Shown piece after piece: positions 32,797-53,366 of a stretch of 64,000 bases of DNA (position 1 is the first letter of the stretch; every line of letters starts with the position of its first letter). The position numbers were made by a program, and so were the translations under genes. The notes below the pieces were generated by a model. It was not told the origin of the DNA. It searched no databases and saw only the letters and a list, made by a program, of their open reading frames with translations. The stretch comes from Fibrobacter sp. UWR3 (lineage in GTDB: Bacteria; Fibrobacterota; Fibrobacteria; Fibrobacterales; Fibrobacteraceae). Location of the stretch: the NCBI RefSeq assembly GCF_900143055.1, contig NZ_FRCW01000004.1:124001-188000 (forward strand), read 5' to 3'.

Positions 32797-35571
32797 ATGG
32801 AGAAACGTTTGCAGGCAGTGTTTTTGATGGCGGTCTTTTTCTGCCTTGTCTGCTGTTCTAATAGCGAAACGTTTTTCCTGCCTGTCGAGGAGGAAACTTC
32901 CGATAGGGGCGGGATGGTGCTGGTGCGGAGTTTCGGTAGAAACGTTACGCTAGGAACGGAAAACGAAAAGGCCCCGCCCGATGTGCACCCCGCCATGAAG
33001 GTCACCTTTGACTATGATTTTTCAATTTCGTCTCATGAGGTGACCCGGTCGGAGTACTATTCAGAAGTTGTTTCTGGAAGGGCTCCGGATGGCTGGATGA
33101 AGGACATGACTCCTGATTCGGGAAATTACCCGATATCGCAGGTTACGTTTTTCGATGCCGTGCTATATGCAAATGCGAAAAGCAAGGGCGACCGCCTTGA
33201 TGCGGTGTACACCTACGACGAAGTTGTATTGGATGGTGATGGAAATTGTTCCGGTCTTGGGAATATTGCGTTTCATCCCGAGGTGAACGGTTACCGATTG
33301 CCGACCGAGGCGGAATGGACTATCGTAGCGCGGTCCCACTGGAATCCGGAGAAGTGCTGGAATTTGGAAAGGTCTGGAAACTCCCTGCACGAGGTATGTA
33401 CGGAAAGGAATGCAGGCGAAGGTTCGGCTATTTGCGATATGGCGGGTAACGTGATGGAATGGGTAAATGATTGGAAGGGCGCATTTACCGATGGCGAGGT
33501 GTCGAATTTTGTAGGTGCAAATGATGGCGGAACGATGGGGGAACGGGTTCTCAAGGGAGGCAGTTTCCACAACGCGGCATCATCGATGAGGATTTATAGC
33601 CGTGGCGATGTCTATACGGTAACGTCTTCGACAAAAGCCACCCATGTCGGATTCCGCTTGGCGTATGGCGCTATTCCCGCACCGACGTGGCTTTCGGGTG
33701 GTACCCCGGTGGCAAAATCGACCTATTCGTTGCAGGCGAAGGCACAAACGGTTCAGGAGAAGATGGGCACGCGTCATGTCAAGCTCGTGTTTCGGGATAT
33801 CACCAGCAAGAAGTTGGCCTACGTGGATTATGGAGCGATTCCGCTTGCGGTCGTGGAAATCAAGGATACGCTGGAAGCGTACCATCCGGAGCTGTCGCCT
33901 GATGGTAAATGGGTTGCCTTTTGTACGGGAATAGAGGGTGTTTCTGGGCAATCGTCCGTCTATGTACGTAGACTGGACGCTGCGGGATCGGATCTTGCCC
34001 GGCTTGATGTCGAGTCGGCGGCAATCCCCCGTTGGAAGGTCCTTGATAATGGTGATACGGTTATTGTCTACGTGACCAGTGCGGCTAACAATAGGGATAC
34101 CGCGGTATTTAAGGCGGCGAGTACATGGCAGGTGAAATTTTCGAGAGGTAGGTTCGGTATACCCGAAAAGCTCTTTGACGGCACCTATCACGGCGGCATA
34201 AGCGAAGACAATTCGCTTGCGGTGACTGGAGCCCGGCTTTTCCGTGTTCGAAAGGCGGGTGGATCGCCATCGGATAGCGTGCAGGAAGAAACGTGGTATA
34301 ATGGGGAGCAGGTCTGCAATGTGAGCCTTTCGAAAGACGGAACGGACCGATCGCTGTTTCTGGATTTCGGTGGCAAGACGGGCCGAGATTTTACGTCGGC
34401 CAACTATGGCGTACACGGAATGCTCCTTGTGTCGGATAAGGCGGGGAATCTTGTTCAGGGGATCCCTGCACCACGGGGCTACACCTTTGACCATACGGAA
34501 TGGGCTGCGGATAACTCTGGTTTCGTGGTGACGAGCCTGATGAATTCGGAGGGGAGTCATTCGAAGATTTCTCTGCTGGATACGTCCGATTCCTCCTTTG
34601 TGAACCTGCTTGGCGGTGATGATCTCTGGCACCCCAGCCTGTGGGCAAGGCCAGAGCCGAAGGCCGTTGCCGAGTCGGAACTGGATTTGGATAGTGCCTG
34701 CGTCTACCTTACGTCTTATGCGGGGTCTAGGGCGCGGATAATGAAGGTTAAAATGGATCTCTTCTGGAAATACCGTGAAATGGCAGAAGCGGTCGCTATC
34801 GGATCGTCTCGCTCGTTTAGCGGTTTTGATCCGAGGAGTTTTTCGTCGTTGTTTGCCATAAACCTTTCTTATTCATCGCAGAACCTGACTTCGACGGAAT
34901 ACTTTGTCCGCAATTACATTGTTCCCTTGATGCCTAAACTAAAAATGATTGTGCTTTCGCTGGATTTTGACCGCTGGGATACCGATGGCAGGGATTTCCA
35001 GAAGTATTTTTCGGCCATTCCCGGATACCAGTATGATAAGAACCATGGTTTCTGGGCTGATGGAGTTCCTCCTGAGATGGCTCAAATTGCGGAAAACAGC
35101 CCGGCGCTGGATTCCTCGGAAGCGTTCCTGTACAGCTTTCATCGGGGGCTTTACTTTTCGACAACAACGGGGTGGGGCGAGGACACCCCTTCCATGGAGG
35201 GGTCTATAGATTGGTACAAAAAGTCAAAGAAGAAATTTGAATACAACCTGGGGTTACTGAAGACGGTTCTTGACATAGCGAAGGAGAAGGGGGTGGTTGT
35301 CGTTGGCGTGGTTTTCCCGCAGTCGCCACGTTACCGCGAGAAGGGTGCCTGGGGACGTTACGGGCTAGATGAAAGCTCTGCCGATGAAATCAAGGATATT
35401 GTAATTGGCTTGTATAGTGAATTCCCGAACTTTATCGTTGTTGACTTGCACGAAAATGGATTGCACGATTTTGAATATGGGGATTTCGCGAACGAAGACC
35501 ACCTGAATCTAGTTGGTGCGACAAAGGCGACCTGGTTGATTGAAAACCACTGGAAAACCTTGCTGCATTGA
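32797..35571 (+). CDS. Giant lipoprotein 1: FGE-like domain, TolB-like propeller, SGNH-like domain (TIGR02171-type)
   Basis: The 924-residue protein has a lipoprotein signal (VFFCLVCC). A sulfatase-modifying-factor-like domain follows (about 40-285: EVTRSEYY, YRLPTEAEW, CDMAGNVMEWVNDW, VLKGGSFHNA, HVGFRLAYG). Next is a PD40/TolB-like propeller (YHPELSPDGKWVAFCTG; IPRWKVLDNGDTVIVYV; YHGGISEDNSLAVTGARL). The C-terminal alpha/beta domain has IGSSRSF (Ser671) and NEDHLNLVGA (His902), resembling blocks I and V of SGNH/DltD-like enzymes. The FGE catalytic cysteines are absent. It matches, from memory, the Fibrobacter paralogous family TIGR02171. Three paralogs follow in this window. The open frame starts earlier, but the signal peptide begins at 32797. 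Function unknown. Confidence 0.85.
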   Translation: MEKRLQAVFLMAVFFCLVCCSNSETFFLPVEEETSDRGGMVLVRSFGRNVTLGTENEKAPPDVHPAMKVTFDYDFSISSHEVTRSEYYSEVVSGRAPDGWMKDMTPDSGNYPISQVTFFDAVLYANAKSKGDRLDAVYTYDEVVLDGDGNCSGLGNIAFHPEVNGYRLPTEAEWTIVARSHWNPEKCWNLERSGNSLHEVCTERNAGEGSAICDMAGNVMEWVNDWKGAFTDGEVSNFVGANDGGTMGERVLKGGSFHNAASSMRIYSRGDVYTVTSSTKATHVGFRLAYGAIPAPTWLSGGTPVAKSTYSLQAKAQTVQEKMGTRHVKLVFRDITSKKLAYVDYGAIPLAVVEIKDTLEAYHPELSPDGKWVAFCTGIEGVSGQSSVYVRRLDAAGSDLARLDVESAAIPRWKVLDNGDTVIVYVTSAANNRDTAVFKAASTWQVKFSRGRFGIPEKLFDGTYHGGISEDNSLAVTGARLFRVRKAGGSPSDSVQEETWYNGEQVCNVSLSKDGTDRSLFLDFGGKTGRDFTSANYGVHGMLLVSDKAGNLVQGIPAPRGYTFDHTEWAADNSGFVVTSLMNSEGSHSKISLLDTSDSSFVNLLGGDDLWHPSLWARPEPKAVAESELDLDSACVYLTSYAGSRARIMKVKMDLFWKYREMAEAVAIGSSRSFSGFDPRSFSSLFAINLSYSSQNLTSTEYFVRNYIVPLMPKLKMIVLSLDFDRWDTDGRDFQKYFSAIPGYQYDKNHGFWADGVPPEMAQIAENSPALDSSEAFLYSFHRGLYFSTTTGWGEDTPSMEGSIDWYKKSKKKFEYNLGLLKTVLDIAKEKGVVVVGVVFPQSPRYREKGAWGRYGLDESSADEIKDIVIGLYSEFPNFIVVDLHENGLHDFEYGDFANEDHLNLVGATKATWLIENHWKTLLH

Positions 35572-35638
35572 GAACCCTTGCGGAATGTTGCTATATTCTT
35601 TCTGTTGGTTTGACTGTATCTAGGAGTGTTCGCCGTTC

Positions 35639-38500
35639 ATGACTTTTTCCCTGGGTCACAAGATTGTGCTTTTTGTGCTGGGTAGCCTTCTCGCTATCCT
35701 GTGCTCTTGTGATTCTTCGGGGCGTAGCCATGGGGCGGATAGCATCACCCGCCCGCAACAGAGTGCAACTTCAAAAAAATTCTCCGGGATGCGCATTGTA
35801 AAGCCCGGTGAAGGCCGTATTGCTTTAGGCACGAACGATACGCTTGCTCCGGCGAAGGAGCGCCCCTCCATGAAGGTCGAACTGACCTATGATTTCTATA
35901 TGGGGCAAGCCGAGATTACCCGTCGCGAATACAAGATGATGATGGATTCGGTGGAAGTGCCTGCCAAGTGGAACCAGAAAAGAAAGTTCACGCTGGATTC
36001 GCTGAACTATCCGGTAACAAACGTCACGTATTACGATGCCGTGTTGTATGTGAACGCAAGAAGCAAGTTCGAAAAGTACGATACAGCCTATACCTACAAG
36101 TCGGCGACATTCAATGAAGAAGGCAATTGCACCGGTCTTGAAGGACTCGTGTTCCATCCGGAACTGGATGCATACAGGCTGCCGACCGAGGCGGAATGGG
36201 TGCTCGTGGCAAGCAGGAGGTGGAATCCCGAAAAGGGCTGGAATGCTGAAAATTCTGGGCACGGACTGCATGTGGTTTGTACGGCGGACGAAGTATCCGA
36301 ACTGGATTCCGCTGCGCGGGACAGCGCCTTTTGCGATATGGCAGGCAATGCGCTTGAATGGGTGAACGACTGGATGGGCGCGTTCGTGGATTCTGTGGTG
36401 GTCAACTATGTCGGGGGTTCCGATGGCGGTTCGATTGGCGAAAAGGTGGTGAAGGGTGGCAGTTACAACGACAAGCCGAAGGGCATGAAGATATATAACC
36501 GCGGGGATATCTATACGGTTACCGGCAGTTCCCGGGCCGATTACGTGGGCTTTCGCGTTGCGTACGGAAAGATTCCCGATGCGCTGTGGGTGAATGGAGA
36601 CGGTTCCCTTACCAGCAGCCGCGTGAATGTGCTCACGAAGGCTTCTACGCTCGGTACGGTTTTGGGCACGAGCAAGGCGAAACTGGCCTTCCGCAACGAC
36701 CTTACCGGAAACCTGACCTACGTCGATTTTGCTATAGGAGGCACGTCTGCGGTTGAAATCCGGGATACGCTGACGGTTTATCATCCGGAAATTTCCCCGA
36801 ACGGGAAACTTGTCGCGTTCTGTACGGGGCTCGAAGGAATTGACGGGAAGTCGCAGGTGTATGTGCGTCACCTGAATCCGTCGGGTTCTAATCTCGTGAA
36901 GTTGAACGCGGAATCTGCGGCAATCCCGCGTTGGCGTGTTCTCGAGAACGGGGACACGGTAATTGTCTACGTGACCAGTGCGGGCAACAACAAGGATGAT
37001 GCATCGTTTAAGTCGCAGAGTACGTGGCAGGTCAAGTTTGCGAACAATAGGTTCGGCACACCACAGAAACTTTTTGACGGCGCTTACCACGATGGCGTGA
37101 GTAAGGACGGGCGGCTGGCCGTTACCGGGGCGAGGCTTTTGCGTGCGCGGGTTGTGCCTTCGGGCTCGGCGGATGCGGAGAAAGCGCTCGATACGGTTTG
37201 GTACGGTGGGGAACAGGCCTGCAATGCAAGCCTTTCGCGGGACAATTCCAAGCGCACCCTGTTCCTTGATTTTGGCGGGAAGACGGGCAAGGAATTTGCG
37301 GGCACTGATTACGGTACGCACGAGATGCTCCTTGTCGTAGACAGTACGGGAACGCTCGTTCGGGGAATCCCCGCTCCGGCCGGGACCAGTTTTGACCATG
37401 CAGAATGGGTGGCCCGCTCGGACAATTCGCCGAAGCTTTCCTCTGACGTGGCGGTCGTGACGCTCGTGAACGGGGAAGGGGCTCATTCCAAGATTGCACT
37501 CCTTAATCTTGCCGATTCTGCTTTGCTCGAGGTTGCCTCGGGAATGGAACTCTGGCATCCGAATATGTGGGTGTACGGGAGTTCTGATGCGGAGAGAAAT
37601 TCCGTTTCGGCGGATAGCGCTGGCGTCTACTATGACCCGGAAGGGGGCTACGAGTATGCGACCTCCGCGGTAGAACTCGCAAGCAAGATGTCTAAGTTCT
37701 GGTCGGTGTACAAGGATGTCGAGTACGTGGCATTCGGCAGTTCCATGACGCTGAATGCGCTTATCGACGATTCGGTGAAAACCTACAAGACGCTCAATAT
37801 GTCTTACACGCTGGGCGATGTATTTGGGGCGATTTACCTGCTGAAGAACTATGTGCTCCCGTACGCATCCTCGTTGAAGGTTGTGTCGATGGAATTGACT
37901 CCCGGGTTCCTTTTCCATCTGGAAGAGGACATGTGGGAAGACCTCTACGACAATTCCCCCGGGTTTGCCTACGACGAAAAGCATCTGGACGCGCAGTTCG
38001 ATGCCATAGTCAAGAGTGCTACTGAACAGGAATTCACGAAGGACATGTTCTCGTCGTCGTATATCGAGGGAACATACCTGTTGCCCTCGGCTGGCTGGAA
38101 GGAACCGACGTACATCGATGATATCGCGTGGATGTACACGACGAATTCGCATTTCAAGGTGGATTTTGAAACGTTCAAGGGCCTCAAGAAGAATATGGAA
38201 ACTCTTGGGATAAAGTTCTTTGTCAACATTACCCCGCGAAGCCCGATGTACCGGGAAACGGAAGCCTACGACTACTTTGGCCCGCGCTGGGCCGTTGCGG
38301 AATCCATCATATCGATGTTCAAGGAAAGCGGGTTTATCGTGTTTGACGAATACAGGATGGGCGAACACGACTATACTGATGACATGGCGTTCAATGCGAC
38401 GCACCTGAGCGAACTCGGTGCAAGGCAGTATACGGCTCGGTTAGATTCGGTTCTGACAAAACTGGACTCGCTTCGGGCGGAACTTGATGCGAAAAAGTGA
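35639..38500 (+). CDS. Giant lipoprotein 2 (TIGR02171-type)
   Basis: The 953-residue paralog of the preceding gene has a lipoprotein signal (LLAILCSC). Its FGE-like domain shows RLPTEAEWVLVA, CDMAGNALEWVNDW, KGGSYND and YVGFRVAYG; the propeller shows YHPEISPNGKLVAFCTG, AIPRWRVLENGDTVIVYV and YHDGVSKDGRLAVTGARL. The C-terminal domain has FGSSMTL (Ser702) and NATHLSELGA (His922). It is the longest and most diverged at the C-terminus: where the other three have HGFW it reads KHLDAQF. It has a longer leader than paralog 1, with TAGGAG 12 bases before the ATG and TATATT about 45 bases upstream. A C-terminal helix (LTKLDSLRAELDAKK) extends beyond the paralogs. Confidence 0.85.
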   Translation: MTFSLGHKIVLFVLGSLLAILCSCDSSGRSHGADSITRPQQSATSKKFSGMRIVKPGEGRIALGTNDTLAPAKERPSMKVELTYDFYMGQAEITRREYKMMMDSVEVPAKWNQKRKFTLDSLNYPVTNVTYYDAVLYVNARSKFEKYDTAYTYKSATFNEEGNCTGLEGLVFHPELDAYRLPTEAEWVLVASRRWNPEKGWNAENSGHGLHVVCTADEVSELDSAARDSAFCDMAGNALEWVNDWMGAFVDSVVVNYVGGSDGGSIGEKVVKGGSYNDKPKGMKIYNRGDIYTVTGSSRADYVGFRVAYGKIPDALWVNGDGSLTSSRVNVLTKASTLGTVLGTSKAKLAFRNDLTGNLTYVDFAIGGTSAVEIRDTLTVYHPEISPNGKLVAFCTGLEGIDGKSQVYVRHLNPSGSNLVKLNAESAAIPRWRVLENGDTVIVYVTSAGNNKDDASFKSQSTWQVKFANNRFGTPQKLFDGAYHDGVSKDGRLAVTGARLLRARVVPSGSADAEKALDTVWYGGEQACNASLSRDNSKRTLFLDFGGKTGKEFAGTDYGTHEMLLVVDSTGTLVRGIPAPAGTSFDHAEWVARSDNSPKLSSDVAVVTLVNGEGAHSKIALLNLADSALLEVASGMELWHPNMWVYGSSDAERNSVSADSAGVYYDPEGGYEYATSAVELASKMSKFWSVYKDVEYVAFGSSMTLNALIDDSVKTYKTLNMSYTLGDVFGAIYLLKNYVLPYASSLKVVSMELTPGFLFHLEEDMWEDLYDNSPGFAYDEKHLDAQFDAIVKSATEQEFTKDMFSSSYIEGTYLLPSAGWKEPTYIDDIAWMYTTNSHFKVDFETFKGLKKNMETLGIKFFVNITPRSPMYRETEAYDYFGPRWAVAESIISMFKESGFIVFDEYRMGEHDYTDDMAFNATHLSELGARQYTARLDSVLTKLDSLRAELDAKK

Positions 38501-38583
38501 TTCGCGAAGTTCCGGAGGAAAGTTTTTTGGTTGAACAAAATCACATTTTGCCCTTTATTTTGACAGAATCACAAAAAAATAGG

Positions 38584-38612
38584 TTGCAAAAAAAGGCGAG
38601 AACTTGTAATTT
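38584..38612 (+). promoter_or_regulatory. Sigma-70-type promoter of the GH8 gene
   Basis: TTGCAA (38584-38589) and TAATTT (38607-38612) are separated by exactly 17 bases. They precede a leader of about 25 bases with an AAGGAG Shine-Dalgarno. Confidence 0.55.
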
Positions 38613-38642
38613 AGATAAGTCGCGTAACGACAAGGAGTGTTT

Positions 38643-40133
38643 ATGAAATGTTTGGTAAAAATGGGCCTCGCGGGCCTTATGGCTTTTGGACTTTCGCAGG
38701 CGGCGGTGAACTTCCCGTATCCGCAGATGTCGGATTATGGCGGAAACGCGACTCTTTTGAGCGACAAGGCTGCCGCCTCGGAACAGCTGAAAAAGCAGTT
38801 CGCTGCCTGGATGAGGGACATGTACAACGAACAGGGCGATATCGCCGGTGTGCGTTCTGATCCTGGGTCCAACCAGTATTTTTCGGAAGGTGTCGGCTAC
38901 GGCATGCTCCTGATGGTCTATTTCAGTGACAATACTACGAGTTACCAGAGCCAGTTCGACAAGATCTGGAATTTCTACAAGAAGTTCCAGAACGAAAACG
39001 GACTCATGATTTGGAAAATCGGTAATCTTTCGGAATCGTGGGATGCGGGCAACGGTGCCGCTCTGGATGGCGATATCGATGCCGCAGCAGCCTTGGTGAT
39101 GGCATACTACCAGTTTGGCGACGAGAAGTACAAGGAAGACGCCAAGAAACTCATCCAGGCCATGAAAAAGTCCGAATTCGAAAGCAACGGCTTGCATATG
39201 CCTGGTGACAAGTGGGGCGATGCCGCCTTAAACCGCAAGAACCCGGGTTACTTCGACCCGGCCTACATGCCGCTTTTCGCCGCCGTTGATACGGAAAACG
39301 CCGAGTTCTGGAGCAAGACCGCCTACGACGCCAACATGAAGCTTTACGAGGCGAGTTCGGGCGAAGTGAATACGGGCCTTGTGGACGACTGGACTGACAA
39401 GAACGGCAAGAGTGAAGACGATTACTACAGCTACGATGCATCGCGCGCCCCGTGGCGTAACGCGAAGGCTGTCTGCTGGCATGGCGACCAGCGTGCTCTT
39501 GCAATAGACAAGAAGATGGCTGAGTTCGTGTCGACTGTTCCCGCATCGAACATGAAGGGGCCTGTACTTCGTTCTTCCGGCAGTCTCGGCAATGATCACA
39601 ACAGTACGTTCGTGACATCCTTGATGACGGCTCTCATCTCGGATGCCAAGTACCAGTCCAAACTTGACGAATACTGGAAAGAAGCGGTGGCGCTCGGTGA
39701 CGAGAATTACTTTAACCAGTCGCTCAAGCTCTTGAACGGCCTCCTGGTTTCGGGCAACATGCCTAACCTCATGACGGCGGGCTCGAATCCGCCGCCGCAG
39801 AGTTCCTCGAGCGCTGAACCTCCGCTGTCTTCTAGTTCGAGCGAGATGAACGTGGATTTGAGTTCCAGTTCCGACGGGAGTGTCGCTGTTCCTGAGGCAA
39901 GCTTGCCCTCGGCGGTAGGAATGTCGCAGCAGGGCCGCGCACTGCATGTGAATGCTGTGGGCCACGTGCGTGTGGATATGTTCAGCGTGACGGGAACCGC
40001 GGTAAAGACTCTCTGGAACGGGAATGTTTCTGGCAGTATGGAGATGAGCCTCAAGGGAATCCCCGCGGGCATATATGTGCTGCGCGTTCAGACTGCGGGT
40101 GGCTCGCACATGAAAAAAATCCGCCTGGAGTAG
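38643..40133 (+). CDS. GH8 endoglucanase with serine linker and C-terminal sorting-like domain
   Basis: The 496-residue enzyme has a signal peptide (CLVKMGLAGLMAFGLSQA). The GH8 (alpha/alpha)6 catalytic domain (about 22-375) shows SEGVGYGMLLMV with acid Glu82, AALDGDIDAAAAL with the conserved Asp residues, YFDPAYMPLF and YYSYDASRAPWR. A serine linker (about 380-420) follows, then a C-terminal beta domain (VRVDMFSVTGTAVK to AGIYVLRVQTAGGSHMKKIRLE) like type IX sorting domains or the basic terminal domains of Fibrobacter cellulases. GH8 enzymes cleave beta-1,4-glucans, xylan or chitosan; cellulase activity is most likely here. An in-frame GTG at 38637 is less likely, because AAGGAG sits seven bases before the ATG. 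Confidence 0.93.
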   Translation: MKCLVKMGLAGLMAFGLSQAAVNFPYPQMSDYGGNATLLSDKAAASEQLKKQFAAWMRDMYNEQGDIAGVRSDPGSNQYFSEGVGYGMLLMVYFSDNTTSYQSQFDKIWNFYKKFQNENGLMIWKIGNLSESWDAGNGAALDGDIDAAAALVMAYYQFGDEKYKEDAKKLIQAMKKSEFESNGLHMPGDKWGDAALNRKNPGYFDPAYMPLFAAVDTENAEFWSKTAYDANMKLYEASSGEVNTGLVDDWTDKNGKSEDDYYSYDASRAPWRNAKAVCWHGDQRALAIDKKMAEFVSTVPASNMKGPVLRSSGSLGNDHNSTFVTSLMTALISDAKYQSKLDEYWKEAVALGDENYFNQSLKLLNGLLVSGNMPNLMTAGSNPPPQSSSSAEPPLSSSSSEMNVDLSSSSDGSVAVPEASLPSAVGMSQQGRALHVNAVGHVRVDMFSVTGTAVKTLWNGNVSGSMEMSLKGIPAGIYVLRVQTAGGSHMKKIRLE

Positions 40134-40172
40134 ATACTTGCTTAGGAATTTTGCCGATTCCAAAGAAAAAAT

Positions 40173-40204
40173 GCGCTTGCCGTAAAGGCGGGCGCTTTTT
40201 TTTT
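40173..40204 (+). terminator. Rho-independent terminator of the GH8 gene
   Basis: GCGCTTGCC (40173-40181) pairs with GGCGGGCGC (40187-40195) over 9 bp including two G-U pairs, loop GTAAA, followed by nine T residues. The next gene's -10-like element starts two bases after the T run. Confidence 0.85.
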
Positions 40205-40206
40205 CG

Positions 40207-40212
40207 TATTTT
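40207..40212 (+). promoter_or_regulatory. TATTTT -10-like element before the TolB-like gene
   Basis: TATTTT-TAGGGC-ATG gives a six-base spacing to the start at 40219. The element abuts the T run of the upstream terminator, so any -35 contact would fall inside the terminator stem. Confidence 0.45.
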
Positions 40213-40218
40213 TAGGGC

Positions 40219-41466
40219 ATGAATAAGATTGTGAAGATTTGCGCCTGTGCGGCATTTGCCGCAACTTCTGTTTTTGCCCAGCAGGGCGCCCCGACAGGGG
40301 CTGCCGTTGACCCGACTGCAGATGAGCAGAAAGCCCTCAATGCCTTGAAGGGAAAACTCGAAGGGGCGATTGTCTGGGCGACGAGCCGTGCAAACTCGCA
40401 TCACGATATCTGGATTATGAATGCCGACGGCACGAACCCACGTGCCTTGACGCAGGGCGATAATGTGGACTGGTTCCCGAGGATTTCTCCGGATGGCGCC
40501 ACGGTGCTGTTTAACCGCAGCAAGGGCGGCTGGGTTCCCGAGAACGACGCGAACTATCCTGAAAAGTGGGACCTGTGGATGGTCGACATCTCCGGCGAAA
40601 ATGCCCGCAAGGTGGTGGACAATGCCACGTGGGGCACCTGGAGGCCCGACGGCAAGTCCATCGTGTTTAGCCGCGCAGGGAAGGTCTTTACGATGGACCT
40701 CGCGAGCAAGGCCGAAAAGATGATTCTGGATGGCGAGGCCGCCTTCAAGAAGTCTGGCGTGATTCTGCAGGAACCGAACATGAGCCCCGATGGCAAGCAT
40801 TTGGCGATTACGCTTCGCGGTTCCATGCGTGAGACGGGTGTGTGGGACCTGGAAAAGGCCCAGTGGACCAAGTCCGGCGACGGTTGCCAGATTGACTGGA
40901 ACTTCGACGGAAGCAAGATTTACCGCGTGAACCCGACGGGTAACGGCGGCACGGCCGCCCCGAGCGAAATTTTGTGGTTCTCTGCTAAGGACGGCAAGCA
41001 GATCGAGAAGGTCGGCTTCTTCGGCATCCCGAAGAACGTGAAGTTAATGGACTTGCCCGGCCGCCGCAGTCACGAATACTTCCCGCGTCTTTCGCCCGAT
41101 GGTAAGTGGCTCGTGTGGGGTGCTACCGACAAGGGCCACGACCACGACTTGTTCGACTACGAACTATACATCTGGAAGATTGGCGAACCGGTAGAGACGG
41201 CGACCCGCATTACCTACCACACGGGTAACGACCGCTGGCCCGATATCTGGCTCGGCAAGGTGCCGGTGAACGCTTCGACAGGCTCAGCGACCGGAGCGAC
41301 AAAGGCTGTCGAGACTGCGGCCCAGGCTGCGGTCGGTGCCGCCGTTGCGGGTGGCGTGAGCGAAGCCAAGATGGATGAACTTATTCAGGCCATTGACCGT
41401 CTGACCGAAGCGGTGAAGGCGTTGAACAACGAGAAATCGTCAGCCCCTGCCGCAACGGCTCCGTAG
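40219..41466 (+). CDS. Secreted TolB-like beta-propeller (PD40) protein
   Basis: The 415-residue protein has a signal peptide (CACAAFAATSVFAQ). Repeated PD40-type blades follow (HDIWIMNADGTNPRALT; DWFPRISPDGATVLF; DLWMVDISGENARKV; GTWRPDGKSIVFSR; EPNMSPDGKHLAI; YFPRLSPDGKWLVWGA), related to TolB and to the middle domain of the giant lipoproteins around it. A linker (about 350-380) contains NASTGSATGAT, whose DNA (GCTTCGACAGGCTCAGC) looks like a dispersed repeat. A C-terminal helix (KMDELIQAIDRLTEAVKAL) may be a coiled coil. No pal or tolQRA genes are adjacent, so it is not simply TolB. Its 3' end overlaps the convergent methyltransferase gene by 27 bases. Confidence 0.82.
   Translation: MNKIVKICACAAFAATSVFAQQGAPTGAAVDPTADEQKALNALKGKLEGAIVWATSRANSHHDIWIMNADGTNPRALTQGDNVDWFPRISPDGATVLFNRSKGGWVPENDANYPEKWDLWMVDISGENARKVVDNATWGTWRPDGKSIVFSRAGKVFTMDLASKAEKMILDGEAAFKKSGVILQEPNMSPDGKHLAITLRGSMRETGVWDLEKAQWTKSGDGCQIDWNFDGSKIYRVNPTGNGGTAAPSEILWFSAKDGKQIEKVGFFGIPKNVKLMDLPGRRSHEYFPRLSPDGKWLVWGATDKGHDHDLFDYELYIWKIGEPVETATRITYHTGNDRWPDIWLGKVPVNASTGSATGATKAVETAAQAAVGAAVAGGVSEAKMDELIQAIDRLTEAVKALNNEKSSAPAATAP
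41271..41297. repeat. Possible dispersed-repeat fragment in the TolB-like gene
   Basis: GCTTCGACAGGCTCAGCGACC lies in frame in the linker before the C-terminal helix. It resembles a motif common in bacterial dispersed repeats. Only one copy is in the window, so this is tentative. Confidence 0.35.
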
Positions 41467-42198
41467 GCAGAATGCCATAATGGCGAACGCACCGGCGACG
41501 TTCATGCTCGCCTTGCGGCCAGCCATCGGGATGGTCACCTTCATGGTCGCCTCTGCCATCAGTTCGGGGGCAATTCCCAGTTCTTCGTTCCCGAGGATAA
41601 TCAGGCCTTTTTCGGGCCACTTGACATCGTTTATGCTCGGGATATCTTCGCCGGTTTCGAGCGCGATAATCTCGTAGCCGTTTTCCTTGTGCCACTTCAC
41701 GCAATCGAAGGGCGAGTCCCAGCGCTTGATGGGAATCCATTCCTGGCACCCGCGGGCAGCGCTCTTGACGGTCACGTGGTCGGGTCCGCAGCTGTAGCCG
41801 CTCAGGTGGACTCCTTCGAGCCCGAAGCAGTCCGTGCTCCTGATGATGGAACCTACGTTGAAGGCGCTCCTCAGGTTATGTACCAGCACGGCAAACTGTA
41901 TCGGTTTTTCGTTCGCGACATCGCGGTCCCCCGGTTCCTGCTCTAGGTAAACATCGCGTTCGAACCCGAGGCCCGCCCGCGTGCGGAATGTCTTGTACAG
42001 GTCAATCATCTGCGCCTGGTTCTTGCCCGTGAGGCATTCTGCTTCGGGGAGTTTCATCCATCCGGCGTATGTCTCGTATTCACGCCTAGCGCGGGGCACG
42101 TCGTCGCCCAGTTGCAAGATGATGACGCGCAGGAGTTCCGCCATGCGCTTGGCCTTGGAGGTCTCTTTCATCGCGAGGAATTTCGGTTCCGTATACAT
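41440..42198 (-). CDS. SpoU/TrmH-family RNA 2'-O-methyltransferase
   Basis: The 252-residue protein has the three SPOUT motifs: motif 1 NLRSAFNVGSIIRSTDCFG, motif 2 GLIILGNEELGI and motif 3 IPMAGRKASMNVAGAFAI, which form the trefoil-knotted SAM site. It has an N-terminal helical extension of about 95 residues. The family methylates ribose 2'-OH groups in tRNA or rRNA; the target cannot be assigned. The start at 42198 is preceded on the minus strand by TTTATTCCCCG, close to the window's short-leader pattern, with no clear Shine-Dalgarno. Confidence 0.9.
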   Translation of the reverse strand: MYTEPKFLAMKETSKAKRMAELLRVIILQLGDDVPRARREYETYAGWMKLPEAECLTGKNQAQMIDLYKTFRTRAGLGFERDVYLEQEPGDRDVANEKPIQFAVLVHNLRSAFNVGSIIRSTDCFGLEGVHLSGYSCGPDHVTVKSAARGCQEWIPIKRWDSPFDCVKWHKENGYEIIALETGEDIPSINDVKWPEKGLIILGNEELGIAPELMAEATMKVTIPMAGRKASMNVAGAFAIMAFCLRSRCGRG

Positions 42199-42267
42199 CG
42201 GGGAATAAACTAGAAAAAATGGGAGCGCGGTGTGTGTGTTCGCCTGCTTTGTTGCCCCTATTCTTTG

Positions 42268-42273
42268 TATATT
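42268..42273 (+). promoter_or_regulatory. TATATT -10-like element before giant lipoprotein 3
   Basis: TATATT-TTAGGGT-ATG gives a seven-base spacing to the start at 42281. It shares the TTAGGG tail with the elements at 23251 and 40207. Confidence 0.5.
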
Positions 42274-42280
42274 TTAGGGT

Positions 42281-44989
42281 ATGCGTTTTTTAGTTCCGTT
42301 TGTTGTTTTTTGTCTTTGCTTTTTGTGTTCCTGTTCCAATTCCGTTTCTGAATGGGAACGCGAAGAACAAAACAGGATTTCTCCGCTCGATTCCTTTGAA
42401 CTCAAGGATATGTCGCTCGTCCGTTCATTCGGGAAGAAGGTTTCTATCGGGACGGACAATTCGTCTGCGTCGCTGAAGGACCGCCCTTCGATGCGCGTTG
42501 TTTTTGATTACGACTTTTTTATCGGGACCCACGAGATTACTTGTGCCGAAATGGGCCGCCCCTGCGAGGACTCTCTGCCTGCAACGAGGGTTACTTATTT
42601 CGATGCGGTGCTTTATGCCAACAAGCGCAGTATTGAGGAAGGCTTCGATACTGCGTACAGTTATACCGGGGCTACATTCGACGCGTTCGGTTCGTGCATG
42701 AATCTGGACGGGCTGGTGTTTTCGCCTTCGGTGATGGCGTACCGATTGCCGACAGAGGCGGAGTGGGTCTATGCGGCGGAACGCAACTGGAATCCGGAGA
42801 AAGGCTGGCACAACGGCAATTCCGGTTTTGAACTGCAGAACGTGTGCACGTCGTTTGTTGGCGAGGATAGCCTGTGTGACATGGCGGGCAACGTGATGGA
42901 ATGGGTGAACGACTGGTTTACGCCCTTGCGCGATACGACAGTCCACAATTTCGTTGGAGCCCCTGATGGCGGGACTCTCGGGGAACGTGTCGTGAAAGGT
43001 GGCAGTTACAGGAACGCCGTTGGCTCGATTAACCGTTATTCGCGAGGTGACATCTACACGGTCACATCTGCATCGCAGTCTGATTACGTCGGGTTCAGGC
43101 TTGCGTTCGGTGCAATCGAATCTCCGGTATGGTTGGGCAAGGATGGCAAGCAGGTGAATTCGGTAGTGTCGGTGCTTGCGGGGGCGATGGATATCCGCAG
43201 GTGGGCGGGCACGTTCAAGGCGAAACTCGCGTTCCGTAACGACGAAACGGGCAACCTTGCGTTTGTGGACTATACTCAGGGTGGTTCCGTGGTGACCGAA
43301 ATTGAGGATACGCTCAATGTTTACCATCCGGATATTTCACCCGATGGAAACTGGGTGGCGTTCTGCACGGGCCTTGAAGGCGTTCGTGGTAAGTCTAGCG
43401 TGTATGTGCGTTCGCTGGATTCCATAGGCTCGGGGCTTGTGAAGCTTGATGTGGAAAATGCGGCGATTCCCCGATGGCGCGTGCTTGAATCGGGCGATAC
43501 GGTGATTGTTTACGTAACCGATGCGGGCAACAACAAGGACGAATCTGTATTTAAGCAGGCGAGTACGTGGCAGGTTCGCTTTTCGAAAGGAAAGTTCGGC
43601 ACGCCCGAAAAATTATTCGGCGGTGCTTATCACGGAGGCGTGAGCGATGGCAATTCCTTTGCGGTAAGTGGTGCGAGATTGTTGCGTGCGCGCGTGGCGG
43701 GGGTCGATACCGTTTGGTACAACGGCGAACAGGCGTGCAATGCTTCGCTCAGTAAGGACAATTCCAAACAGACGCTGTTCCTGGATTTTGCCTCGCGTAC
43801 GGGTACTGACTTTGTAGGGAAATCCTACGGTGCGCACGAGGTCGCCTTCGTGGCGGATAGTGCGGGTCGCTTGGTGCGCTACGTGATGGCTCCCGAGGGC
43901 TATGCCTTTGACCATACCGAATGGATGCAGGGGACAAACCACATGTTTGTCGCCTCGCTTACCGATGCAAACGGCAGGCATGCCCGTATCGCGATGGTTG
44001 ATTCGTACAGTGGCAAGTCAGTCGTTCTCCTTGAAGGCGAAGAAATCTGGCACCCCGCCTTCTGGGCTTTGCCGATGGATGTTTCGGGTGAGTCGTCGCT
44101 CAATCCGGACAGTGCCGGCCTCTACTTTGTGGAGGGCAAGGAAAATCACGTGTTGGCCGGCAAGATGCACATGTTCTGGCACAACCACGATTCCATTGAG
44201 GTTGTCGTGTTTGGTAATTCCCGCATGTTGTTTGGCGTGAACCCCATGCAGATGGAAGATTACTACGTGTTCAATTTCGGAACGGTCCCCTGCGACATGA
44301 ACGCTTCGTACTACATGTTTTCGAACTATGTGTTGCCACATTCCCCGAACCTGAAATTCGTTGTGGTCGGGATTGACCCTGATATGTGGTGGATTGATGA
44401 TACGGAATGGAATATCGACAACAATATCAAGTACGTGCCCGGCTTTGCCTACGATGCCTATCACGGTTTTTGGAAGGAGGGCGTGAGCGATGAATTTGTA
44501 CAGATGGTGGATAACAACTTCCGCGCGGACAACGATTACAACAATGCTGCCCCTTATCGTGGGTGGATTCAGCTTATCGGGGAACATGGCTGGGACAAGG
44601 ATTTGTCGTCGACGGAAATCGTGAACGATACCACGGATAGCGACCTTTCGAAAACGCTTGACCAGGAACTGGAAATGCTCGTGAACCTCGTGAACATGGC
44701 GAAGGACCGTGGAGTGAAGGTTCTGGGTGTGACTGCCCCGCTATGCCCCTGCTACAAGAAAACGGGAGCTTACGGGCGCTACGGGCTCAGACGCAGCCAG
44801 GCGAAGGAATTCTTCGAAAAAGTTCATGCATACGATGCTCGCGAGGACTATTTCAGGTTCCTTGACGAGAACAAGATGGGCGACCACGATTATCCGCTCG
44901 AAGTAGGGTTTGATTACGACCACATCAACTACGTGGGTTCTGCGATTCTTACATCGCGTGTCTATTATGTGCTAAGACAGATGGAGTGA
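42281..44989 (+). CDS. Giant lipoprotein 3 (TIGR02171-type)
   Basis: The 902-residue paralog has a lipoprotein signal (FCLCFLCSC). The FGE-like domain shows THEITCAEMGRPC, RLPTEAEWVYAAE, CDMAGNVMEWVNDW and KGGSYRN; the propeller shows YHPDISPDGNWVAFCTG, AIPRWRVLESGDTVIVYV and YHGGVSDGNSFAVSGARL. The SGNH-like C-terminal domain has FGNSRML (Ser647) and DYDHINYVGS (His881), the one copy with a full D-x-x-H. It shows an Asn/Asp/Trp-rich stretch near 700-760. It is followed at once by a fourth copy in the same orientation, with which it shares a stretch of identical DNA in the propeller (about 43447-43503). Confidence 0.85.
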   Translation: MRFLVPFVVFCLCFLCSCSNSVSEWEREEQNRISPLDSFELKDMSLVRSFGKKVSIGTDNSSASLKDRPSMRVVFDYDFFIGTHEITCAEMGRPCEDSLPATRVTYFDAVLYANKRSIEEGFDTAYSYTGATFDAFGSCMNLDGLVFSPSVMAYRLPTEAEWVYAAERNWNPEKGWHNGNSGFELQNVCTSFVGEDSLCDMAGNVMEWVNDWFTPLRDTTVHNFVGAPDGGTLGERVVKGGSYRNAVGSINRYSRGDIYTVTSASQSDYVGFRLAFGAIESPVWLGKDGKQVNSVVSVLAGAMDIRRWAGTFKAKLAFRNDETGNLAFVDYTQGGSVVTEIEDTLNVYHPDISPDGNWVAFCTGLEGVRGKSSVYVRSLDSIGSGLVKLDVENAAIPRWRVLESGDTVIVYVTDAGNNKDESVFKQASTWQVRFSKGKFGTPEKLFGGAYHGGVSDGNSFAVSGARLLRARVAGVDTVWYNGEQACNASLSKDNSKQTLFLDFASRTGTDFVGKSYGAHEVAFVADSAGRLVRYVMAPEGYAFDHTEWMQGTNHMFVASLTDANGRHARIAMVDSYSGKSVVLLEGEEIWHPAFWALPMDVSGESSLNPDSAGLYFVEGKENHVLAGKMHMFWHNHDSIEVVVFGNSRMLFGVNPMQMEDYYVFNFGTVPCDMNASYYMFSNYVLPHSPNLKFVVVGIDPDMWWIDDTEWNIDNNIKYVPGFAYDAYHGFWKEGVSDEFVQMVDNNFRADNDYNNAAPYRGWIQLIGEHGWDKDLSSTEIVNDTTDSDLSKTLDQELEMLVNLVNMAKDRGVKVLGVTAPLCPCYKKTGAYGRYGLRRSQAKEFFEKVHAYDAREDYFRFLDENKMGDHDYPLEVGFDYDHINYVGSAILTSRVYYVLRQME

Positions 44990-44994
44990 TTGCG

Positions 44995-47685
44995 ATGAAA
45001 GGGGTGTTGGTTTTTCTGCTGTTTGCTGCGTTCGCGGTGCTTGGGGCGTGTTCGAATTCCGCAAGCGCATCTGGTGAGCGGGAAGGGGCTGCCCGCAAGT
45101 CCCTGCTGGATTCGTTCGACCTTGCCAGCATGGTGCCGGTTTACGCACTCGGTGAATCCGTTACCCTGGGGACGGACGACTCTAACGCTCTTGCGCATGC
45201 GCGGCCTGCGATGCAGGTGTCGTTCGATTACGATTACTTTATCGGTAAGCACGAGGTTACCTGCGCCGAAATGGGCAAGGACTGCGGAGATTCGCTCCCT
45301 GCGGTAAACGTCACCTACTACGATGCCGTCTTGTATGCCAACCGCCGGAGTGTTGCCGAAGGGTTCGATACGGCCTATACCTACACCGGGACCACGTTCG
45401 ATAACGAGGGCTCGTGTGTGAATCTGGAGGGGCTCGTGTTCCTGCCGACGGTAAGCGCGTATCGCCTTCCCACGGAAGCGGAATGGGTGTATGCGGCAAG
45501 TGGTGGGTGGAAGCCCGATTCGGGCTGGAATGCGGACAATTCTGATTACCGTGCACATGAGGTCTGCAGCGCGTTTATCGATGGTAATGGGGTCTGTGAC
45601 ATGGCGGGCAACGTGATGGAATGGGTAAACGACTGGTATGTGCCGTTCCGTATGGAACCGGTTGCGGATTATGTCGGCGGGATTGATGGTGGTGTGCTTG
45701 GCGAGCGTGTCGTGAAGGGCGGAAGCTACAGGAATTCTGCCGCATCGATGCATCTGTATTCCCGTGGCGACATCTACACGGTCACGTCTGTTTCGAAGGC
45801 GGAGTATGTGGGGTTTAGGCTAGCGTTTGGCCCGATAAGGAGCCCGATGTGGTTGAACAGGGATGGACAGCAGAAAAGCATCATCGTGTCGATTTTGGCA
45901 AATTCGATGGATATGCGTCATGAGTTGGGTACGAATAAAGTAAAAATTGCGTTCCGCGATGACGAAACGGGAAAACTCGCCTTCGTGGACTATTCGGGCG
46001 ATAATCCGCGCGTGGTAGAAATTGACGATTCTATAGAAGTGTACCATCCGGATATATCGCCCGACGGGAACCGCGTTGCTTTTTGCACGGGGCTTGAAGG
46101 TGTATCGGGCAAGTCAAGCGTGTATGTACGAACGCTTGATTCTATAGGTTCGGGGCTCGTAAAGCTCGATGTGGAAAATGCGGCGATTCCCCGATGGCGC
46201 GTGCTTGAATCGGGCGATACGGTGGTTGTTTTCGTGACCGATGCAGGCAACAACAAGGATGAATCTGCGTTTAGGCAGGCGAGCACGTGGCAGGTTCGTT
46301 TTTCGGATGGCAAGTTCGGTGAGCCCGAGAAATTGTTCGATGGCGCGTACCACGGGGGTATAAGCCGGGATGGAAAACTTGCCGTGAGCGGAGCGAGACT
46401 CCTGCGCGCCCGCGTTTCTGGGCATGATACGCTCTGGTACAACGGCGAACAGGCGTGCAATGCAAGCCTTTCGCACGATAAGTCGAAACGAACCCTCTTC
46501 CTGGATTTTGCGGGAACGACGGGCCGCAAGTTTGTGGGGGAAGACTACGCGACGCACGAGGTGATTCTTTATGCCGATAGTACGGGAACGCTGGAACGTT
46601 TTACGAAGGCTCCTGCACCCTACACTTTCGACCATACAGAATGGATATACGGTGCAGATTCCCTTGTGGTGGCGACACAGGTGGATGTCGATGGCGCGCA
46701 TCGCAAGGTGGTTGCCTTGAACGCATTCACGGGCGATGTGCTCGAAATGTTGTGCGGCGAGGAACTCTGGCACCCCGCCGTATGGGTCAATGCGTATGAT
46801 CGTGCGGTCGTCAATCCCGATTTGGATATCGATAGCGCGGGAGTTTATTTCACGCCGCAGATGGAATTCTACGGGCTGGAATTGCGTGTAAAGATGGAAT
46901 ATTTCTGGAAATCCCGCGATAGCGTTACGGCAGTGGTGCTCGGGTCCTCGAGGGCGATGTTCGGCGTGAATGCCTCTTACGTGCAATCGGAAAATCTCCT
47001 AAACATGGCTTTTTCTTCGGGAGACATTTTCGGAATGGAATTCCTGACGGAGCATTACGTGTTCAGCCATTTGCCAAAACTCCGGTTCCTGGTACTTGAA
47101 TTCTCGCCGGATTTCATGTGGGTGACCGAGAATTCGTCGTGGAACTCGATTTACGAGAATTCCCCGGGGCTCAGGTACGACGAGTCTCACGGTTTTTGGG
47201 TGGATTCGCTCCCGAAGGGCTTTGAAACGCTTGTTGAAAAATCGTATAAGGCACGGCCCGGTCAGATGTTGCCCTACAGTTTCGATGAATTTCTGTTGCC
47301 CTCGGGTGGCTGGGGTGAACCTTCGGTATCGAACGATTCTACACTGTTCCGCCTGGATTTGCCCGCTGTCGTAAACAACATGGCTACGCTCGAAAAACTG
47401 GTAGGGGAGGCTCGTGCCCGTGGTATAGAAGTCGTGCTGCTCGTGACACCGCAAAATCCGCGCTATGCGAAAACGGGCGCGTATGGTGTTTATGGGGTGC
47501 GCCGCTCGGTAGCGCAGGAACTTCTGGAGCGCGCGAAGGCGCTGGACGTGCTGTTCCTGGATGAAAACAAGATGGGTAATCACGACTACAAATCGAGCAT
47601 GGCGTTCAATACCGACCATCTCGGTCGTGAGGGTGCAAAGCAGCTTTCGGAACGCCTGGATTCGTTGTTTAAAACGCTTGAATAG
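44995..47685 (+). CDS. Giant lipoprotein 4 (TIGR02171-type)
   Basis: The 896-residue paralog has a lipoprotein signal (FAAFAVLGAC). Domains are as in the neighbours: FGE-like (HEVTCAEMGKDC, RLPTEAEWVYAAS, CDMAGNVMEWVNDW, KGGSYRN), propeller (YHPDISPDGNRVAFCTG, AIPRWRVLESGDTVVVFV, YHGGISRDGKLAVSGARL) and the SGNH-like domain with LGSSRAM (Ser652) and NTDHLGREGA (His875). GTG at 44986 would overlap the previous stop by four bases, but GGAG eight bases before the ATG at 44995 and the signal peptide favour the latter. It is almost certainly co-transcribed with copy 3. Confidence 0.85.
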   Translation: MKGVLVFLLFAAFAVLGACSNSASASGEREGAARKSLLDSFDLASMVPVYALGESVTLGTDDSNALAHARPAMQVSFDYDYFIGKHEVTCAEMGKDCGDSLPAVNVTYYDAVLYANRRSVAEGFDTAYTYTGTTFDNEGSCVNLEGLVFLPTVSAYRLPTEAEWVYAASGGWKPDSGWNADNSDYRAHEVCSAFIDGNGVCDMAGNVMEWVNDWYVPFRMEPVADYVGGIDGGVLGERVVKGGSYRNSAASMHLYSRGDIYTVTSVSKAEYVGFRLAFGPIRSPMWLNRDGQQKSIIVSILANSMDMRHELGTNKVKIAFRDDETGKLAFVDYSGDNPRVVEIDDSIEVYHPDISPDGNRVAFCTGLEGVSGKSSVYVRTLDSIGSGLVKLDVENAAIPRWRVLESGDTVVVFVTDAGNNKDESAFRQASTWQVRFSDGKFGEPEKLFDGAYHGGISRDGKLAVSGARLLRARVSGHDTLWYNGEQACNASLSHDKSKRTLFLDFAGTTGRKFVGEDYATHEVILYADSTGTLERFTKAPAPYTFDHTEWIYGADSLVVATQVDVDGAHRKVVALNAFTGDVLEMLCGEELWHPAVWVNAYDRAVVNPDLDIDSAGVYFTPQMEFYGLELRVKMEYFWKSRDSVTAVVLGSSRAMFGVNASYVQSENLLNMAFSSGDIFGMEFLTEHYVFSHLPKLRFLVLEFSPDFMWVTENSSWNSIYENSPGLRYDESHGFWVDSLPKGFETLVEKSYKARPGQMLPYSFDEFLLPSGGWGEPSVSNDSTLFRLDLPAVVNNMATLEKLVGEARARGIEVVLLVTPQNPRYAKTGAYGVYGVRRSVAQELLERAKALDVLFLDENKMGNHDYKSSMAFNTDHLGREGAKQLSERLDSLFKTLE

Positions 47686-51455: not shown

Positions 51456-53366
51456 ATGAAGAAATGTTCTTTGGCCGGTATCGGCCTTGCCATGACGCTG
51501 GGGTTAGCGGTATCGGCTTTCGCTGCTGATGCCTGCAACGACAACATGGGTCATACAGGAAACGGCTCACAAGTGAGCGGCAACAGGGTGGGGTCTATCA
51601 ATGGGACCCCTTGGGGCTACGAACAGTGGTATCAGGGTGGCAACGCCTCGATGACCTACTACAGCAATGGTACGTTCAAGGCCAACTGGAGTGGTTCTAG
51701 CGACTACCTGACTCGCGTGGGCTACCAGTACAACGGCAACGGAATCGACCACAAAACAAAGAACTTTGCGGTCGACTACAAGTATACCAAGAGCGGTAAC
51801 GCCCAGTACGGTTACATCGGCGTTTACGGCTGGACCAAGAACCCGGAAACGGAATACTACATCGTGGACGACTGGTTCAGTAAGCCGAGCGAACAGTATG
51901 TGGGTGAAAAGTTCGGCGAAATCACGGTGGATGGCGCCAAGTACTCCATCCACGCGTTCCTCCGCCAGCAGGAACCCTCCAAGTCGGGCACTTCTACGTT
52001 CGTGCAGTTCTTCAGCATTCGCGAGACTCCGCGTCAGTGTGGCCATATCGACATTTCTGCCCACTTCAAGAAGTGGGATGAACTCTTCACCGGCCAGCAG
52101 AAGCAGCTTCGCGGTTCGAAGGGCGGTGGATCTGCTTCGCTCAAGTTCGGTAACGTGACCGAAGTGATGCTCATGACCGAAGCGGGAGGCAATGCTACGG
52201 GTTCCGTGGACTACACTTACTTCAATATGGTCGACAATGCCACGTCGTCGCCGACTTCTAGCGGTTCTGCGCCGAAGTCCAGCTCATCTGTGGCAAAGTC
52301 TAGCTCTTCTCAGGGTGGTGGCCAGACGGTTGTGACTGATGTTTGCAAGGCCACAGATATGGGCCATCCTGGCAATGGCAACAATGTGAGCGGCAACAAG
52401 GTTGGCTCCATTAGTGGAACACCCTGGGGCTACGAACAGTGGTATCAGGGTGGTAACGCCTCGATGACCTACTATAACAACGGTACGTTCAAGGCCAACT
52501 GGAGTGGTTCTAGCGACTACCTGACTCGCGTGGGTTACCAGTACAACGGCAACGGAATCGACCACAAGTCGAAGAATTTTGCAGTCGATTACAAGTACAC
52601 CAAGACAGGTAACGCCCAGTACGGTTACATCGGCGTTTACGGCTGGACCAAGAACCCGGAAACGGAATACTACATCGTGGACGACTGGTTCAGTAAGCCG
52701 AACGAACAGTATGTGGGTGAAAAGTTCGGCGAAATCACGGTGGATGGCGCCAAGTACTCCATCCACGCGTTCCTCCGCCAGCAGGAACCCTCCAAGTCGG
52801 GCACTTCTACGTTCGTGCAGTTCTTCAGCATTCGCGAGACTCCGCGTCAGTGTGGCCATATCGACATTTCTGCCCACTTCAAGAAGTGGGATGAACTCTT
52901 CACCGGCCAGCAGAAGCAGCTTCGCGGTTCGAAGGGCGGTGGATCTGCTTCGCTCAAGTTCGGTAACGTGACCGAAGTGATGCTCATGACCGAAGCGGGT
53001 GGCAATGCTACGGGTTCCGTGGACTACACCTACTTCGACATGACCGACAAGTACGAGGCTCCGAAGTCCAGTTCTTCTATTGCCAAGTCCAGCTCCAGCG
53101 GTAGCGCTAAATCCAGTTCTAGCCGCGGCGGGTGGAACTGGGACCGCAGCAGTAGCGCTACAGATGCTCTCCCGTTCATGACCCAGGCTCTCGCGACTAT
53201 GGATGGTCAGTTCATGGTGTTCGACATGCAGGGCCGCACTCTTGGCGCAATTGATGTGCCGGCCGGTTCTACGGTTGCATCTGCCGTCAAGGCGAAGTTC
53301 AAGAATACGGGCATCTACCTTGTGAAGCAGGGCAAGACCTTCCTCCGCGTGAAGGTGACTCCGTAA
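51456..53366 (+). CDS. xynC: Endo-1,4-beta-xylanase with two near-identical GH11 domains (XynC-like)
   Basis: The 636-residue enzyme has a signal peptide (LAMTLGLAVSAFA) and two GH11 jelly-roll domains (about 25-255 and 300-525). A serine linker joins them; a second serine linker and a C-terminal domain (FMVFDMQGRTLGAIDV to LRVKVTP) follow. Each domain has the nucleophile Glu in NPETEYYIVDDW (Glu133, Glu404) and the acid/base Glu in MTEAGGNATGS (Glu242, Glu513). The architecture is that of F. succinogenes XynC. The domains are almost identical at DNA level with an 813-base offset, suggesting recent duplication or gene conversion. A TAGGAG Shine-Dalgarno precedes the start. A second GH11 gene follows with its own promoter region. 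Confidence 0.93.
   Translation: MKKCSLAGIGLAMTLGLAVSAFAADACNDNMGHTGNGSQVSGNRVGSINGTPWGYEQWYQGGNASMTYYSNGTFKANWSGSSDYLTRVGYQYNGNGIDHKTKNFAVDYKYTKSGNAQYGYIGVYGWTKNPETEYYIVDDWFSKPSEQYVGEKFGEITVDGAKYSIHAFLRQQEPSKSGTSTFVQFFSIRETPRQCGHIDISAHFKKWDELFTGQQKQLRGSKGGGSASLKFGNVTEVMLMTEAGGNATGSVDYTYFNMVDNATSSPTSSGSAPKSSSSVAKSSSSQGGGQTVVTDVCKATDMGHPGNGNNVSGNKVGSISGTPWGYEQWYQGGNASMTYYNNGTFKANWSGSSDYLTRVGYQYNGNGIDHKSKNFAVDYKYTKTGNAQYGYIGVYGWTKNPETEYYIVDDWFSKPNEQYVGEKFGEITVDGAKYSIHAFLRQQEPSKSGTSTFVQFFSIRETPRQCGHIDISAHFKKWDELFTGQQKQLRGSKGGGSASLKFGNVTEVMLMTEAGGNATGSVDYTYFDMTDKYEAPKSSSSIAKSSSSGSAKSSSSRGGWNWDRSSSATDALPFMTQALATMDGQFMVFDMQGRTLGAIDVPAGSTVASAVKAKFKNTGIYLVKQGKTFLRVKVTP
51541..52225 (+). repeat. First copy of the internal 813-bp-offset GH11 repeat
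   Basis: The segment encodes GH11 domain 1 and matches 52354-53038 at a constant offset of 813 bases. Long stretches are identical, with only scattered differences (for example GAGC versus GAAC in KPSEQ/KPNEQ). Confidence 0.8.
52354..53038 (+). repeat. Second copy of the internal GH11 repeat
   Basis: This is the domain 2 copy of the direct repeat at 51541-52225. The offset of 813 bases equals 271 codons, so unequal crossing-over would keep the frame while changing the number of catalytic domains. Confidence 0.8.

Follow-up and report, generated by a model that had tools for sequence, protein, structure and literature searches.

The TIGR02171 Locus

The window analysed here, a stretch of 64 kb, encodes four large lipoproteins whose open reading frames were all found at the positions given in the initial annotation (Table 1). 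They flank the genes of a GH8 enzyme and of a separate TolB-like propeller, as that annotation had described; both genes sit between copies 2 and 3, together with an antisense gene for a SpoU-type RNA methyltransferase. The start of copy 4 overlaps the end of copy 3 by 4 bp. The window lies in a Fibrobacter-type genome, and the nearest named homologues come from Fibrobacter MAGs. Elsewhere in the window, positions 51456-53366 encode a protein whose two halves (~230 aa each) are nearly identical and linked by serine-rich stretches, with a signal-peptide-like start.

Table 1: Features of the locus and of the associated genes. Positions without a prefix are those of the window; L112 and L116 are loci outside it.
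Feature	Position	Strand	Properties
TIGR02171 lipoprotein, copy 1	32797..35571	+	924 aa, ATG at 32797; TIGR02171 1048.7 bits over 8-921; PF03781 E 5.7e-24; lipobox, FGE-like 49-289, TolB-like propeller, SGNH domain
SGNH domain, copy 1	34642..35568	+	Ser671 (codon 34807-34809), His902 (codon 35500-35502), acid position Asn899
TIGR02171 lipoprotein, copy 2	35639..38500	+	953 aa; TIGR02171 1124.9 bits; PF03781 E 7.2e-24
SGNH domain, copy 2	37568..38497	+	Ser702 (codon 37742-37744), His922 (codon 38402-38404), acid position Asn919
GH8 with type IX sorting tail	38637..40133	+	PF01270 E 2.1e-29; TIGR04183 25.2 bits (cut-off 23)
Separate TolB-like (PD40) propeller gene	40219..41466	+	PF07676 E 3.6e-14
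TIGR02171 lipoprotein, copy 3	42281..44989	+	902 aa; TIGR02171 1092.1 bits
SGNH domain, copy 3	44063..44986	+	Ser647 (codon 44219-44221), His881 (codon 44921-44923), acid position Asp878
TIGR02171 lipoprotein, copy 4	44986..47685	+	899 aa; TIGR02171 1154.8 bits; full-length structure model
SGNH domain, copy 4	46783..47682	+	Ser655 (codon 46948-46950), His878 (codon 47617-47619), acid position Asn875
Multi-TM protein	L112:7518-9032		504 aa, ~9 hydrophobic segments, N-terminal DTDIWWH; last gene of the AlgX-like operon
Transglutaminase-like protein	L112:14662-15432		PF13369; one N-terminal hydrophobic segment; conserved between AlgX-like and TIGR02171 genes
Orphan MBOAT protein	L116:8810-10228 (G000:C4)		472 aa, ends in FLYFQF

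All four proteins match the NCBIfam family TIGR02171 (Fb_sc_TIGR02171) over approximately their full length with 1049-1155 bits, membership being defined as a whole-protein score above the curated cut-off of 544 bits, and in all four the FGE-sulfatase profile is above its cut-off as well. The Fibrobacter paralogous set without assigned function to which they had been referred is thus a named family. A count of the copies in the genome, which had been proposed at the same time, gave eight above the cut-off, and the family was found above the cut-off in 36 of 61 related genomes, nearly all within the genus. The NCBIfam entry carries the description "TIGR02171 family lipoprotein" and gives no function, and no paper found in a literature search names the family. 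Membership and lipoprotein nature are common to the entry and to the proteins of the window, whereas Pfam marks no C-terminal domain, and the SGNH domain and the operon partners are newly described here. In two further loci (L009 and L023) a TIGR02171 copy carries a long serine-rich (SSSS) linker at the junction of propeller and SGNH domain, beside a gene whose product we take, from the start of its sequence, to resemble triosephosphate isomerase.

The Lipobox, the FGE-Like Domain, and the Propeller

Residue numbers refer to copy 4 unless stated otherwise. A lipobox cysteine (Cys22) follows a hydrophobic stretch in 41 of 41 homologues, and the TIGR02171 proteins are, as predicted from their sequences, envelope lipoproteins. 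A structure search assigned residues ~40-284 to the FGE-type fold (TvpA Z 22.3, PvdO Z 18.1, FGE Z ~17), which FGE and the TvpA-type C-type lectin folds have in common with this domain, and residues ~302-604 to a TolB-like propeller (Z 22.7 to TolB). The full-length model has a pTM of 0.47 and therefore does not fix the relative placement of the domains.

In alignments to 2q17 and 6muj the catalytic cysteines of FGE correspond to N250 and M255, and none of the 41 homologues has a cysteine at either column. An FGE-type enzyme was ruled out on this replacement of the active-site pair in all 41 proteins, and the FGE-like and propeller parts, which the initial annotation had suggested to be binding modules, are supported as non-catalytic ones. 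The variable protein of a DGR, a candidate since TvpA is the best match of the FGE-like domain, was also ruled out, as no match to reverse transcriptase (RVT_1, PF00078) was found in the window's genome, which is rated 100% complete.

The C-Terminal Domain and Its Predicted Active Site

Pfam and PDB sequence searches gave almost nothing for the C-terminal domain, so that its SGNH nature was revealed by the fold search alone. Among the isolated domains PF13472 (Lipase_GDSL_2) matched copy 4 only, with an E value of 0.0042, a match too weak for the Pfam cut-off, and no SGNH chain was present among the PDB sequence matches. The AlphaFold model of residues 600-899, for which 17 natural sequences served as input, reached a pLDDT of 87 and a pTM of 0.88, and its top Foldseek matches were SGNH acylhydrolases (E 1.8e-5), acetylxylan esterases and sialate O-acetylesterases being among the best generic SGNH matches. 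In a second structural aligner, where rows with Z within 1 were treated as tied, PAF-AH-type and other SGNH proteins scored Z 13.3-13.8 over ~181-188 residues and DltD structures reached Z 12.7-13.1 over 235-249 residues (3bma: Z 13.1, 249 residues, 4.3 A; 6pfx: Z 12.9, 235 residues). DltD thus covers more of the domain than the plain esterases (~185 residues) at a similar Z. In the model the domain's first strand is followed by a helix that starts at Ser655, and the last helix comes directly after His878, a predicted placement that is the one of SGNH blocks I and V. An SGNH fold of the C-terminal 290 residues, with the canonical order (Ser first, His last) and a DltD-like elaboration, is therefore well supported by the model. 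The SGNH/DltD-like call of the initial annotation was borne out by the fold search and by the invariance of the serine and the histidine described below, and its spacing of GxS and (D/N)-x-x-H was recovered in all four copies (Table 1).

We do not claim membership in the DltD family, since PF04914 gave no match in the isolated domains up to an E value of 10. A first genome search for DltD gave no match, no dlt genes were seen beside the loci examined, and the comparison with a DltD profile made from seven Bacilli sequences was weak (E 0.0084), as was that with an AlgX profile (E 1.5e-4, probability 52%). The TIGR02171 domain has in common with DltD, an SGNH protein of D-alanyl transfer, the order of the blocks, the GSS motif, D/N-x-x-H, and the fold over ~240 residues, but unlike DltD it often has Asn as the acid, is fused to FGE-like and propeller domains, and is lipid-anchored. 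Though outside the Pfam DltD family, it may work in a DltD-like way. The GDSL/SGNH carbohydrate esterases (Lipase_GDSL_2, CE2, and others), of which dyad variants are known, have the same fold, Ser, and His, but keep other domain company and align with less of the domain than DltD does.

Five residues (G653, S655, N673, G864, and H878) are invariant in 41 of 41 full-length homologues. Conservation of the serine had been set beforehand as one of the points on which the assignment could fail, and the serine is present in all of them. At position 875, the place of the usual catalytic acid in block V, 24 of the 41 have Asn, 17 have Asp, and none has anything else; the tree shows six or more switches between the two, and the distant homologues L038 and L040 have Asp there. 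Mean identity among the eight paralogs of the genome is 32% in the SGNH domain, 47% in the FGE-like domain, and 56% in the propeller. Since the SGNH domain is the least conserved of the three, with 11 of 288 columns invariant, the conservation of the predicted site residues does not simply follow from that of the protein as a whole, and we read the site as a working, putatively catalytic one.

The AlgX-Like Operon and the MBOAT Proteins

In most Fibrobacter genomes other TIGR02171 copies lie in an operon with an AlgX-like gene, in the order AlgX-like, transglutaminase-like, several TIGR02171 genes, and multi-TM. This order recurs, whole or in part, at L032, L034, L036, and L039 and in genomes G010, G034, and G003, and the window's genome has two other paralogs in such an operon on a different contig (C6), where the AlgX-like protein matches PF16822 with an E value of 1.3e-19. 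The AlgX-like partner (~660 aa) has its permuted catalytic set, YDTHW ... GDSF, intact. The multi-TM protein has no Pfam or NCBIfam match and is perhaps a GT-C-type glycosyltransferase.

After the first examples had been seen, PF16822 matches were sorted by profile coverage, those of the operon type being called class A and set against all others. In at least 27 of the 30 Fibrobacter genomes with a class A gene, this gene and a listed TIGR02171 gene are no more than 8 kb apart; for the 47 other AlgX matches the count is 0 among the TIGR02171 genes listed, and the contrast between the two classes is descriptive. The initial annotation had proposed a surface system that adds or removes acyl groups on polysaccharides; acyl transfer on a polysaccharide is strengthened by this proximity. 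The TIGR02171 proteins themselves are not members of AlgX/AlgJ. AlgX is circularly permuted, with D-x-H before Ser (PMC9487903), whereas Ser655 precedes His878 in all homologues, and PF16822 has no match in TIGR02171 proteins. The alginate O-acetyltransferases of PF16822 and the TIGR02171 proteins have SGNH-type acyl transfer as their putative common ground, a true AlgX-like protein being the operon partner of the latter.

The window's locus is itself part of this neighbourhood. The genes in G010 run AlgX-like, transglutaminase-like, four TIGR02171 genes, multi-TM, GH5, GH8, TolB-like propeller, SpoU, TIGR02171, SurE, and GyrA, the last part of which is the gene order of the window. In 17 other genomes the GH8/TolB-like block adjoins the AlgX-like operon, with the TolB-like propeller gene at most 4 kb from the multi-TM gene, and a GH8 gene adjoins TIGR02171 genes in G010, G003, G029, and G033. 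No AlgX neighbour was found beside the distant relatives L038 and L040, which are solitary genes. The gene set is jointly missing from G002, G016, G017, G022, and G028; as these five genomes may be one lineage, joint presence and absence was not counted as proof.

MBOAT-SGNH pathways pass an acyl group to the tyrosine of an FxYxxF motif and from there to the SGNH serine (PMC12148441). No MBOAT gene lies inside the AlgX-like operon. The window's genome encodes three MBOAT proteins, all with a C-terminal FIYFQF or FLYFQF, and two of the genes adjoin an SGNH gene (AlgX/AlgJ-like at L115, GDSL at L117). The third has no SGNH gene beside it and is preceded by a gene for a conserved small secreted protein (~135 aa, no family match). 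An orthologue of this orphan MBOAT gene lies ~9-11 kb from the AlgX-like operon in five genomes, with housekeeping genes between the two in the three of them that were read. We hypothesize that the orphan MBOAT protein pairs with the TIGR02171/AlgX-like system.

Proposed Function and Alternatives

We propose that the TIGR02171 proteins are envelope-anchored SGNH acyl-transfer enzymes and that they and the AlgX-like enzyme work together on a polysaccharide, a reading to which we give about an even chance. An MBOAT protein would bring an acyl group, which is probably an acetyl, through the inner membrane, and an SGNH serine would accept it as a covalent ester. The AlgX-like protein, the TIGR02171 proteins, or both would pass it on to a hydroxyl group on a sugar in an envelope polysaccharide. 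The FGE-like and propeller domains would bind this polymer or else a partner, and the numerous divergent paralogs would differ in the sites or chains that they acylate (or trim). A role of the family in an O-acylation pathway is moderately supported by the gene order; for the direction of the reaction, its substrate, its localisation, and the SGNH protein that accepts the acyl group from the MBOAT protein, the scheme gives what we infer. The SGNH fold, the invariant site, the AlgX-like gene order, the place of the window's gene block in that neighbourhood in other genomes, and the three MBOAT proteins with FxYxxF count for acyl transfer; the lack of an MBOAT gene in the operon and the distance of the orphan MBOAT gene from it, the Asn acid in 24 of 41 homologues, the weak DltD and AlgX profiles, the solitary L038 and L040, and the possible single lineage that lacks the set count against it. 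Of the new evidence the AlgX-like operon weighs most, and it strengthens the reading of acyl transfer on a polysaccharide. The esterase or acyltransferase proposed in the initial annotation was right as to the fold and is supported in part as to the function.

The proteins could instead be surface esterases: the FGE-like and propeller modules would hold plant hemicellulose, and the SGNH domains would deacetylate it and so aid the GH8 and other enzymes. The carbohydrate esterases among the best generic SGNH matches are in line with this, as are the T9SS-tailed GH8 nearby and the GH5 that G010 has at this place, and CE2 esterases with Ser-His dyads that lack Asp do occur (PMC9487903). We consider this explanation rather unlikely, since the stable partner is an AlgX-like acetyltransferase and neither a carbohydrate esterase nor a xylanase, DltD gives the longest structural alignment, and the TIGR02171 members are lipoproteins without T9SS tails. 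A proteome study (PMC6851124) reported lower levels of most lipoproteins on cellulose, a result for lipoproteins in general that also speaks against it. The same study reported lower levels on cellulose of an S85 GH8 with a type IX tail (FSU_3149), comparable with the GH8 of the window by type only.

It is unlikely, too, that the proteins are non-catalytic binding or scaffold lipoproteins in which the SGNH domain has lost its activity and binds an acylated polysaccharide. The Asn at the place of the triad acid in 24 of 41 homologues, the poor conservation of the SGNH domain, and the FGE-like part without FGE catalytic residues would fit such a role, but Ser, His, Gly, and Asn of the site are invariant within the least conserved domain, and the repeated switching of position 875 between Asp and Asn, to the exclusion of any other residue, suggests a kept function.

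That the proteins belong to the type IX secretion apparatus, as relatives of PorK/GldK, is very improbable: the GldK (TIGR03525) profile does match with 23-51 bits, PorK is among the PDB sequence matches, and the neighbouring GH8 carries a T9SS tail, but membership was ruled out by scores of at most 51 bits in all four copies, far under the cut-off of 350 bits that no protein of the window's genome exceeds, the similarity is that of the common FGE-type fold, for which TvpA and FGE score better, and to our knowledge PorK has neither propeller nor SGNH domain.

Significance

Among the cellulose degraders in the guts of herbivores, Fibrobacter take a leading place. The family TIGR02171, which is lineage-specific and present in at least eight copies in many Fibrobacter genomes, was previously without an assigned function. 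The predicted SGNH active site and the AlgX-like operon partner give it a concrete, testable functional hypothesis. We found no description of a combination of FGE-like domain, TolB-like propeller, and SGNH domain, which would be an addition to the MBOAT-SGNH acylation systems. A bolder version of the acyl-transfer reading, which we think improbable, is a new O-acylation machine in which one MBOAT protein and one AlgX-like donor would feed a bank of paralogous SGNH transferases on lipid anchors, and the lectin-fold and propeller modules of these transferases would choose the acceptor chain. If this is true, the cell would mark its own surface polymer, or plant glycans bound to it, with acyl groups in a combinatorial pattern.
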